Both the position numbers and the translations under genes were made by a program. A DNA stretch of 64,000 bases from Micromonospora sp. NBC_01796 (GTDB lineage Bacteria; Actinomycetota; Actinomycetes; Mycobacteriales; Micromonosporaceae), in contig NZ_CP109078.1 in assembly GCF_035917455.1 (NCBI RefSeq), forward strand, positions 5,006,001-5,070,000, in the 5' to 3' direction. Below the pieces are notes generated by a model that did not search any database, had not been told where the DNA came from, and saw only the letters and a list, made by a program, of their open reading frames with translations. Shown here piece after piece: positions 60,908 through 63,915 of this stretch (within the stretch, counting starts at the first letter, position 1; each line of letters starts with the position of its first letter).

Positions 60908-61709
60908 CGTGCCGTCCCACGCCGCCCATGAACACTGCCCGTTCGGCGTCGTCGAGGCTGTCGAACGCGTCGGGTCGCCACTGCGGCACCCAGACCACAC
61001 CGGGGTCGACGAGGTCGAAACCGTCGAAGAGTCCGGTGAGTTCCCGCCGGCTGCGAACCGTCAGCGGATTGTCCGTACGTTGGTAGACACGCTCGGCGTC
61101 CTCGCGCTCGTCGTCGGTCCGGCCGTCGTCGCTGGCCTGGGAGAGCACGAGGTAACTGCCGGGGGCGAGGCTGCGCCGGATGGTGGACAGGATGCCACGG
61201 GGGTCGTCCGAGTCCGGGATGAAGTGCAGCACCGCGACCACCATGACGGCCACCGGTTCGTCGAAGTTCAGCAGCTTGCGTACGTCCGGATGGCTCAGGA
61301 TCTCCGCCGGCTGGCGCAGGTCGCCCCAGAGCGCGGTCGCCTGCTCGTTGCCGCTGAGGATCTCCCGGCTGTGCGCCACCGCGACCGGGTCCACGTCGAC
61401 GTAGACGACCCGGGTGTCGGGGGCGGCCTGCTGGGCGATCTCGTGCACGTTGCCGACCGTCGGGATGCCCGAGCCGATGTCGAGGAACTGCCGGATACCG
61501 GCGTCGATGAGGTAGTGCACCGCCCGGCGGAGAAAGGCCCGGTTCGCCTGGGCCATCAGGGGCGCCTCCGGAACGGACGCGATCATCGCCTGGGCCGCCC
61601 GCCGGTCCGCCGCGAAATTGTGCGAGCCGCCCAGATAGTAGTCGTACATGCGGGCCACGCTGGGTCGTTCGATGTCGATGCTCTGCGGTGCCCAGTCCGG
61701 CCTTTGCAT
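60900..61709 (-). CDS. SAM-dependent methyltransferase (DUF574 family)
   Basis: A 269-aa protein. RPSVARMYDYYLGGSHNFAADR is the hallmark start of the actinobacterial DUF574/Methyltransf_19 family. The SAM-binding loop is FLDIGSGIPT, followed by VYVDVDPVAVAHS. Substrates are unknown. It is translationally coupled to the GGDEF-EAL gene, so it may belong to a signalling unit. Confidence 0.9.
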   Translation of the reverse strand: MQRPDWAPQSIDIERPSVARMYDYYLGGSHNFAADRRAAQAMIASVPEAPLMAQANRAFLRRAVHYLIDAGIRQFLDIGSGIPTVGNVHEIAQQAAPDTRVVYVDVDPVAVAHSREILSGNEQATALWGDLRQPAEILSHPDVRKLLNFDEPVAVMVVAVLHFIPDSDDPRGILSTIRRSLAPGSYLVLSQASDDGRTDDEREDAERVYQRTDNPLTVRSRRELTGLFDGFDLVDPGVVWVPQWRPDAFDSLDDAERAVFMGGVGRHGG

Positions 61710-61972
61710 GCCTACCTGCCCCTACGCTGAGAACGCACGAAATACTGCCCCTCGGGTGGTTCCCCGGCTATTCTGCCCGTCGTCCGTCCAGCTATCCAGA
61801 CCGCGCCGGATCGTCACCCGGATCAATGACGGCAGTCACCATCGCACGGCTCCGATCCGACATGGACACGGGGTCCGCCCCATCCGCCCGGCGGGCCGGC
61901 GCTGGTGGGACGTGGCCCACCCGGAGTGGGACGCCGTGGTCAACCGTCGCGGCGCGTGGCACTCTGGGGATC

Positions 61973-62566
61973 GTGCAGGACTCCGCGCTGACCGGCTCGT
62001 TCGTGGTCGTGGCCGTACTGGTCGCCGCGACCGCCTTCGGGCTGTGGCGCCGCCGACGTGACGGTCGGCTGCGCCCCGTGCCGGCCCGACCGGCACCTGC
62101 GGAGGGGCGAACGGCGGTAGCGGAGGGGCGAACGGTGTCAGTGCGGGGTCAGTCGGAGCAGCCGCAGGACCGGCCGGCCGACGATCCCGGTGCGCCGGGG
62201 ATGGTGGTGGAACCCGCCCTGCTGGCCGCGCTCGGCGTACTGCCGGGGACGCCCGCGACGCTGTTGCAGTTCTCGTCGGCGTTCTGCGCGCCCTGCCGGG
62301 CCACCCGGCGGGTGCTCGGTGAGGTCACCGGGCTGCTCGACGGCGTACGGCATGTCGAGGTCGACGCGGAGAGCCAGCTCGCCGCGGTCCGGGCACTGAA
62401 CATCTGGCGTACGCCGACGGTGCTGGTGGTCGACGGGGCCGGCCGGATCGTCCAGCGGGCCACCGGTGTGCCGGGCAAGGCGCAGGTGATCGCCGCGTTG
62501 GCGCCCCTGCTCGCCGCTTCCGGTGACACCGCCGGTGGGCGGGACCGGGAAGGCGCCGGCCGGTGA
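61973..62566 (+). CDS. Membrane-anchored thioredoxin family protein
   Basis: A 197-aa protein with one N-terminal membrane helix (FVVVAVLVAATAFGLW), a roughly 55-residue Arg/Pro linker and a thioredoxin fold with active site FCAPCRA (CxxC) and IWRTPTVLVVDG (cis-Pro loop). GTG 61973 follows TGGGGA; the long upstream frame is rejected. Its stop overlaps the start of a Cys-containing leader peptide by 4 bp, ahead of a DUF4395 gene. Confidence 0.87.
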   Translation: MQDSALTGSFVVVAVLVAATAFGLWRRRRDGRLRPVPARPAPAEGRTAVAEGRTVSVRGQSEQPQDRPADDPGAPGMVVEPALLAALGVLPGTPATLLQFSSAFCAPCRATRRVLGEVTGLLDGVRHVEVDAESQLAAVRALNIWRTPTVLVVDGAGRIVQRATGVPGKAQVIAALAPLLAASGDTAGGRDREGAGR

Positions 62567-62634
62567 CCGCCCGCCTGCTCACCCGGCGCCGCATCGTCGA
62601 CCACGGCCGCCTCTGCACCAGCCTCTGTCGCTGA
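62563..62634 (+). CDS. Putative Cys-containing leader peptide (attenuator)
   Basis: A 23-codon ORF from GTG 62563 (GTGA overlap with the thioredoxin stop) to TGA 62634. Basic residues (LLTRRR) are followed by an end reading LCTSLCR, as in the actinobacterial leader peptides found before sulfur genes. Both Leu-Cys codon pairs lie in a CCTCTG context that can pair with the DUF4395 Shine-Dalgarno sequence. Stalling on Cys codons could free that site. Confidence 0.7.
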   Translation: MTARLLTRRRIVDHGRLCTSLCR

Positions 62635-62722
62635 GCCCGGACCCCGTTCGTCCCGGCTCACCGGCGGCCGTCAGCGCGCCGCCTCTTCCCCCGACACGCG
62701 TCGCCCTCTTCCCCGACAGAGG
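62610..62722 (+). promoter_or_regulatory. Candidate cysteine-responsive translation attenuator of the DUF4395 gene
   Basis: Four CCTCT motifs (62610, 62622, 62682, 62705) are each complementary to the AGAGG Shine-Dalgarno sequence at 62718-62722. The nearest forms a hairpin CCTCT-N8-AGAGG that would hide the site. The first two lie within the leader peptide's Leu-Cys codons, so ribosome position could control which partner is free. Confidence 0.5.
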
Positions 62723-62728
62723 TAAACC

Positions 62729-63169
62729 ATGCTGCTCGACCCTCGCGGTCCCCGGTTCGCCGCGGCCGTCACCACCGTGGTCCTGATCATCGTCCTGCTC
62801 ACCGGCTCCGGCTGGCTGGCGCTGGCCCAGGCCGCCGTTTTCGCCATCACCGCCGCGGTTCCGCGCCGGGGTCCGTACGGGCTGCTGTTCCGGGCCCTCG
62901 TGGCGCGTCGGCTGAGCCCGCCGACGGAGCTGGAACCGGCCGCCCCGGTGCGGTTCGCCCAGGTTGTCGGGCTGGTCTTCACACTGGTCGCGGCGGCAGG
63001 TTACCTCGGCGGCGCGGACGGCGTGGGTCTGGTCGCGGCGGCCCTGGCGCTCGCGGCGGCGTTTCTCAACTCGGCGTTCGGGCTCTGCCTGGGGTGCGAG
63101 GCCTACCTGGCGTTCCGCCGGCTGAGCGGCCGGGCGATCCCGGCCCGGGTGCCGGTCGACGCGTCCTGA
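62729..63169 (+). CDS. DUF4395 domain membrane protein
   Basis: A 146-aa protein with four membrane helices and the DUF4395 pattern, including LLDPRGPRFAAAVT at the start and FLNSAFGLCLGCEAYLAF near the end. The two Cys in CLGC face a helix end and may exchange electrons with the upstream thioredoxin protein. Genes of this family are often found beside thioredoxins or rhodaneses. AGAGG lies 6 bp upstream of ATG. Confidence 0.9.
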   Translation: MLLDPRGPRFAAAVTTVVLIIVLLTGSGWLALAQAAVFAITAAVPRRGPYGLLFRALVARRLSPPTELEPAAPVRFAQVVGLVFTLVAAAGYLGGADGVGLVAAALALAAAFLNSAFGLCLGCEAYLAFRRLSGRAIPARVPVDAS

Positions 63170-63246
63170 CCCCGGTCAGCCGGCCTCGCCACGGGTACGG
63201 GCCGACACGGTGTACGCACACCGGGCCGGCCCGAACCGCAGAGCGG

Positions 63247-63915
63247 TCAGAACTTCGGCGCGTCGGGGGCTTCCAGCAGCCCCAGCCGCAGGGCGGTCAT
63301 CAGGGCCTGAGCCCGGTTGGCCGCGCCGAGCTTCTCGTAGAGCTTCGAGATGTGGGTCTTGGCCGTCGACTCGCTGACGAAGAGCTGCTTGGCGATGCCG
63401 GCCACGCTCATCCCGTCGGCGAGCAGGCGGAGCACCTGCCCCTCACGGGGGGAGAGTTGCGGACCGGACGGGGCCAGCCGGCGCTTCATCGCCTCGGCGA
63501 GGTCGGCGGCGGTGAACGCGCTCGGCGACGACGCGGCGTGCCGGGCGGCGGCGACCACCTCGTCGGCCGGGGCGGTCTTCGGTACGAAGGCGCTGGCCCC
63601 CGCCTCGAGTGCCCCGAACAACTGGTCGTCGCCCGCGTACATGGTGAGGACGACGATGCCCATGGTGGCGCTGGACTTGCGCAGGGCGCGGGTGGCCTCC
63701 AGGCCGCTGCCGTCGGGGAGGCGAAGGTCCATGATCACGACGTCGGGCTGGAGGGCACCCGCCTGGCGGACCCCCTCCGCCGCCGTCGCGGCCTCACCGA
63801 CGACCTCGAACTGACGGTCCCGTTCGAACGCGTGGCGCAGGCCCTTGCGGATCAGGTCGTGATCGTCGACAAGAAGGACCTTGGTGCGGCCAGCCGGCGT
63901 GGGGCTCGTGGTCAT
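63247..63915 (-). CDS. NarL/LuxR family response regulator
   Basis: A 222-aa two-component regulator. The receiver domain has VDDHD (16-20), the phospho-Asp63 in VIMDLRLPD and the Lys in FVPKTA. The output domain is a LuxR helix-turn-helix (LSPREGQVLRLLADGMSVAGIAKQLFVSESTAKTHISKLYEKL). The cognate kinase is not in the window; it may lie beyond the right edge. It converges on the DUF4395 gene. Confidence 0.93.
   Translation of the reverse strand: MTTSPTPAGRTKVLLVDDHDLIRKGLRHAFERDRQFEVVGEAATAAEGVRQAGALQPDVVIMDLRLPDGSGLEATRALRKSSATMGIVVLTMYAGDDQLFGALEAGASAFVPKTAPADEVVAAARHAASSPSAFTAADLAEAMKRRLAPSGPQLSPREGQVLRLLADGMSVAGIAKQLFVSESTAKTHISKLYEKLGAANRAQALMTALRLGLLEAPDAPKF

Follow-up and report, generated by a model that had tools for sequence, protein, structure and literature searches.

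An invariant UGU codon in a conserved cysteine leader: a probable translational attenuator inside a thioredoxin–DUF4395 operon of Micromonospora

Cysteine-responsive leaders are known from mycobacteria, through the 2020 attenuator work of Canestrari et al. as it is summarised in PMC9094748 and PMC13091356. According to the available descriptions, leaders of the Ms5788A family consist of a short Cys-codon ORF in front of a sulfur or thiol gene, with an RNA structure that hides the downstream ribosome site and that stalling would open; they are leaderless first ORFs and carry a poly-Cys run. Cys uORFs before cysA2 are predicted in the accessible part of PMC4633059, and in the accessible part of the S. 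lividans attenuator list (PMC8079986) none of the entries is called Cys-dependent. We here describe a leader that shares the short Cys ORF and, by prediction, the hidden ribosome site with the Ms5788A family as so described, but differs from it in lying within an operon on the stop codon of a thioredoxin gene, in having two separated Cys codons rather than a run, and in using its Leu-Cys-Arg codons themselves as the predicted anti-Shine–Dalgarno (anti-SD) sequence.

The leader lies in the window, by which we mean the whole stretch of 64,000 nucleotides that was analysed, taken from the 8.56-Mb single-contig genome of Micromonospora sp. NBC_01796; all coordinates are window positions. On the plus strand it is preceded by a thioredoxin-like gene (61976–62566, an ORF call in which the start codon is assumed, the longest ORF beginning at 61688) and followed by a DUF4395 gene of 146 aa (62729–63169; PF14340, E 2.3e-41). 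The upstream protein scores 23.4 bits against Pfam Thioredoxin (PF00085), marginally short of the cut-off of 23.5, and matches TIGR01068 below cut-off (E 2.9e-6). The leader ORF itself (62563–62634, plus strand), identified by ORF calling, by its relatives and by its kinship with NCBIfam families, encodes the 23-codon peptide VTARLLTRRRIVDHGRLCTSLCR from GTG at 62563 to TGA at 62634. As the original prediction had stated, it starts on the thioredoxin stop, the sequence GTGA giving a 4-nt overlap with the TGA at 62564–62566; 94 nt separate its own stop from DUF4395. Counting codons from a conserved Asp (D) as anchor, its first Cys codon is a TGC at D+5 (62614–62616), placed by the sequence and by alignment with relatives, and its last is a TGT at D+9 (62626–62628). 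A search of 61700–63300 against Rfam returned no match at E up to 1, and a Pfam search of the leader peptides likewise returned none. A response-regulator-like gene with a helix-turn-helix tail (63247–63915, minus strand) is convergent with DUF4395.

DUF4395 matches were found in 132 of 200 searched genomes of the organism's own family, and our locus set consists of the best 107 DUF4395 places of that search (30 + 77), weaker places being left out. By the pattern LT[RK]RRxVDxxRxxxxLC, a leader of the form LTRRRxVDHGRLxxSLC, or a near form of it, stands upstream of DUF4395 in 32 of these 107 loci, and no leader was found by pattern in the other 75; among the leaderless loci many have a thioredoxin gene abutting or overlapping DUF4395, and in some the gap is longer and contains nothing that can be recognised as a leader. 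In all three examined genomes of the genus the leader has two Cys and ends LCTSLCR; most of the others are either the single-Cys LTRRRxVDHGRLAASLC or the three-Cys LTKRRAIDLCRVAxCLC. Thioredoxin lies upstream in 28 of the 32 leader loci, and in 24 of the 28 an in-frame leader start lies across the thioredoxin stop, the overlap being 4 or 1 nt, which speaks for coupling from thioredoxin; four loci (g12) have the leader with no thioredoxin found. As judged from this comparison, the 23-codon ORF is a conserved leader, and its conservation together with the stop overlap supports the earlier proposal of a Cys leader internal to an operon. Against an attenuator stand the 75 loci without a leader by pattern and two unusual leader ends: in L008 the customary stop is missing and the frame closes just 2 nt short of DUF4395, and the leader of L028 reads beyond the DUF4395 start. 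In three loci (L009, L010 and L012, all g32) the start on the thioredoxin stop survives with a frame that lacks the Cys motif, which looks like the remnant of a leader. In many relatives, a sequence that resembles the response-regulator-like gene and ends in PDAPKF can be seen by eye adjoining DUF4395.

Of 21 aligned leader peptides, 20 match NF042933, the model of the Ms5788A family Cys-rich leader (best E 4.6e-15), and 15 match NF042934 (cis_reg_atten; best E 2.8e-10), matches being counted at E up to 10 and not at the family cut-off; some DUF4395 leaders also share with the Ms5788A family, in its available descriptions, the peptide core LTKRRAVDLCRVAxCLC. The orthologous leaders at this locus thus show kinship with NF042933. 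The window peptide reaches 14.1 bits against that model (E 0.027), the cut-off being 45 bits, a shortfall that counts against an attenuator; another leader of the same genome scores 61.4 bits. Unlike the leaders that match NF042934 (cut-off 27 bits), it gives no match to this model at E up to 1, having HG in place of L-x after VD, and none of the 24 matches in a search of the whole genome with NF042934 (E up to 10) falls at its place. The window leader is therefore kin of the known actinobacterial Cys leaders of NF042933 and NF042934 by position and sequence, and not a scored member of either family. NF042934 is itself widespread, being detected at E up to 0.001 in 50 of 60 genomes of the class and above cut-off in 45. 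A strict VD pattern run over the own genome found the window copy alone, and profile searches, used instead, revealed additional leaders of the same kind. The ORFs that follow them encode rhodanese, sulfite/nitrite reductase, solute-binding protein, luciferase-like monooxygenase, M14 peptidase and acyl-CoA-dehydrogenase-like domains, and one has no Pfam match. One profile match (L118, E 0.013) was excluded since it lacks the appearance of a leader that begins at a nearby start. Three of the leaders (L126, L121 and L116) lie within about 30 kb of one another (G000:C1, 7.04–7.07 Mb), near the M14 peptidase and the luciferase-like monooxygenase.

The original prediction drew attention to four CCTCT motifs and a single AGAGG, two of the former lying in Leu-Cys codon pairs, and proposed that they form duplicated anti-SD sites. 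The motifs are indeed present within 62563–62740, CCTCT at 62610, 62622, 62682 and 62705 and AGAGG at 62718 only; four CCTCT in 169 nt compare with 0.42 expected, none of 5000 dinucleotide shuffles reached four, and each of the copies at 62610 and 62622 spans a Leu-Cys codon pair. The latter of these belongs to a longer element, CCTCTGTCG (62622–62630), formed by the Leu-Cys-Arg codons, which is the exact 9-nt complement of the DUF4395 ribosome site CGACAGAGG (62714–62722). A complement of this length was equalled by 8 of 20000 shuffles of 62635–62728, and the same one is kept by L007 and L008, both congeners. A working role for the duplicate copies, on the other hand, is not supported. L007 has CGA CTC TGC instead of CCTCT at the place of the first leader copy, and the two spacer copies originate from a 22-nt direct repeat (62675–62696 and 62697–62718, 77% alike) that is found in the window alone and is missing in both congeners. 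In the predicted free ensemble the ribosome site pairs with 62621–62630 at probabilities of 0.85–0.99, as against about 0.01 for the nearest spacer copy at 62705. What stands of the proposal is an anti-SD in the last Leu-Cys codons, and on this model the anti-SD is likely the single 9-nt element at 62622–62630.

Complements that are matched but differ in sequence occur in L037 (CTGTGTCG with CGACACAG) and in the own-genome leader L126 (CCTGTCGA with TCGACAGG), which speaks for selection on the pairing. Across the class, the leader tail and the SD region share a longest complement of 4.91 nt, against 4.52 nt for swapped partners, and none of 200 swaps attained the former value; this test covers those 81 of the 90 class loci in which a downstream start could be called by a simple SD rule. 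One recurrent pair combines CCTGA at the leader stop with TCAGG in the SD, which co-occur (11 loci with both, 15 with the leader motif only, 5 with the SD motif only and 50 with neither; Fisher 9e-4). CTGTC and GACAG, tried as another general leader/SD pair, were rejected for want of association (counts 1, 29, 3 and 48). The DUF4395 set taken by itself shows a weak excess, 30 of 300 partner swaps equalling its complement length and 13 of 300 its energy, which counts against an attenuator. At L120, before the sulfite/nitrite reductase gene, the spacer sequence CCGTTGTCT is by eye an exact complement of the ribosome-site sequence AGACAACGG, an anti-SD separate from the leader.

The effect of a stalled ribosome was modelled by masking the last Cys codon. 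With folding computed without co-transcriptional order, the mask raises the unpaired probability of the SD window from 0.19 to 0.53 in the window. AGAGG itself, however, changes from a mean of 0.01 to 0.20 and stays mostly paired, because the spacer copy at 62705–62709 then takes it in a predicted fallback hairpin (62705–62722), a result unfavourable to an attenuator. Over 31 DUF4395 loci the accessibility of the SD window is 0.375 unmasked and 0.464 with the same mask (p 4e-5 when compared with a control mask placed 5′), and over 79 class loci it is 0.370 and 0.416 (p 0.017). The sign of the effect, which had been left open in the original prediction, is thereby set in the model: a stall at the last Cys codon makes the ribosome site more accessible. 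Set beside known translational attenuators, the locus has the short Cys-codon ORF just before a sulfur- or thiol-linked gene and, as an in silico structure, the pairing of leader and ribosome site; in place of a run of adjacent Cys codons it has the two at D+5 and D+9.

We consider it probable that the locus is a cysteine-responsive translational attenuator inside the thioredoxin–DUF4395 operon. As the overlap suggests, ribosomes that finish thioredoxin would restart on the leader GTG. When cysteine is plentiful, the ribosome would translate through the terminal UGU Cys codon and be released at the stop close behind it, whereupon the leader sequence CCUCUGUCG is predicted to pair with the ribosome site and shut DUF4395. 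When Cys-tRNA is short, the ribosome would stall with UGU in its A site, the anti-SD would be covered and DUF4395 would be translated. As in the trpL and leuL attenuators, charged tRNA would be sensed by leader codons; unlike in these, the predicted readout is translational and does not involve a terminator, the peptide is conserved outside the sensing codon, and there is often just one Cys codon.

The UGU spelling of the last Cys codon may mark the sensing codon. This codon is TGT in all 32 DUF4395 leaders, against 19 TGC and one TGT at other Cys codons up to 12 codons upstream in the same leaders, and 184 TGC and 14 TGT in the DUF4395 genes. For the class, a set of 90 NF042934 matches was used (30 + 60 loci, other listed matches being left out). 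In 119 distinct leaders, which as relatives are not independent events, D+9 is TGT with a single exception, a TGA stop, so that all 118 leaders with a Cys codon at this position have UGU, as against 97 UGC and 19 UGU at their other Cys codons (Fisher 6e-47). Three class matches without the anchor (L164, L153 and L154) fall outside the 119; all three have TGT, which in L153 and L154, whose loci are clipped at a contig end, stands at D+9. The exceptional leader, L218 of genome G256, has its UGA stop precisely at the UGU place and a Cys codon at D+5. TGT makes up 22 of 132 Cys codons in ORFs of the window and 18 of 158 in ORFs of the class loci, and T occupies the third base of the remaining leader codons at frequencies of 0.01–0.21. 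A separate DNA scan of named genomes that allowed either TGC or TGT gave TGT at D+9 in 80 of 80 rows (80 of at least 118 stretches), with TGC prevailing at D+2 (79 against 1) and D+7 (75 against 5); the rows represent 51 distinct 63-mers, two of them common to the 119 leaders. Ms4527A-type leaders of the own family have UGU at D+9 in 27 of 27 anchored cases, and likewise in L382, which the anchor pattern missed, and seven other own-genome leaders, two of them also in the sets above, all have TGT. Since synonymous codons elsewhere in the leaders are well mixed, this uniformity is not explained by common ancestry alone. A search by anticodon-loop pattern, which could miss a second gene with another loop, found a single tRNA-Cys in the genome, with anticodon gca. 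With GCA as the sole tRNA-Cys anticodon, UGU would be decoded by wobble. Most simply, cysteine would be sensed at D+9, and the UGU spelling would make this position the slowest or the most charge-sensitive. The rule, one synonymous base fixed across leaders, appears from these alignments to be the new element here; our literature search, whose coverage did not include the central 2020 paper, returned no report in the texts available to it of such a rule or of DUF4395 with thioredoxin.

The preference for attenuation by codon hunger has to be weighed against other readings. A real though lesser possibility is that the leader is a cysteine-dependent nascent-chain arrest peptide, in which conserved Arg, Asp and Arg residues within the exit tunnel would arrest the ribosome once UGU occupies the A site; a lack of cysteine would then not be enough by itself, and the anti-SD switch would be the same. 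These residues, R(D−4), D and R(D+3), would lie at distances of 12, 8 and 5 residues from the P site; TnaC depends on residues at similar distances, and the likeness to TnaC-type arrest leaders is seen here in the sequence alone. R(D−4) is kept in 119 of 119 leaders with five different codons and R(D+3) in 114 of 119, whereas the conservation of D is not independent evidence because D anchors the alignment. In addition, D+9 is the sole Cys codon in 59 of the 119, which is thin for a plain hungry-codon sensor; yet many others hold 2 to 7 Cys codons, and common descent could keep the residues without function.

It is unlikely that RNA pairing, and not decoding, is what fixes the third base of UGU. 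In the three congeners this codon is indeed part of the predicted pairing with the ribosome site, and the third base (U3) has mean pairing probabilities of 0.73 and 0.57 in the DUF4395 and class sets, but pairing of U3 with the SD window exceeds a probability of 0.5 in just 6 of 31 DUF4395 loci and 5 of 79 class loci. Such pairing in a minority of loci is not a general cause of UGU, although pairing elsewhere could occur; moreover, leader CTGTC and SD GACAG do not co-occur, and the codons flanking UGU vary. We regard as equally doubtful that the leader is a plain coupling cistron, ferrying ribosomes from thioredoxin to DUF4395 without sensing cysteine. The frequent start on the thioredoxin stop would suit it, as would the L008 leader that nearly reaches DUF4395 and the leaderless relatives in which thioredoxin often abuts DUF4395, but it fits poorly with the length of the spacer in the window, with the conservation of the peptide and of a final Cys codon that is spelled UGU, and with the occurrence of the same leader type before unrelated operons. 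That the leader is a functional small protein whose ribosome-site complement is accidental is very improbable, since the favourable observation, that outside D+9 the amino acids are conserved while synonymous codons change freely, is outweighed by the rarity of the 9-nt complement among shuffles, by its retention in three congeners and by a fixed wobble base that protein function does not demand.

A cysteine-responsive attenuator at this locus would bring a known cysteine-sensing device into the middle of a thioredoxin–DUF4395 operon and tie DUF4395 to cysteine or thiol homeostasis. The larger point is the UGU rule, in which one synonymous base is fixed across many actinomycete families in leaders whose remaining Cys codons are mostly UGC; it would name the sensing codon, allows a one-base test and lets leaders with a single Cys codon be recognised. 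A bolder and tentative extension is that, throughout the class, an R-x3-D-x2-R nascent chain holds the ribosome when the wobble-read UGU nine codons past the Asp enters the A site, so that Cys leaders would be codon-specific arrest leaders and not plain hungry-codon sensors. If this is true, the speed of UGU decoding would set sulfur-gene expression across the class, tuned by tRNA-Cys charging and perhaps, as general knowledge would suggest, by a sulfur-containing modification of the anticodon loop, and the fixed U would represent a regulatory code written at one synonymous base.
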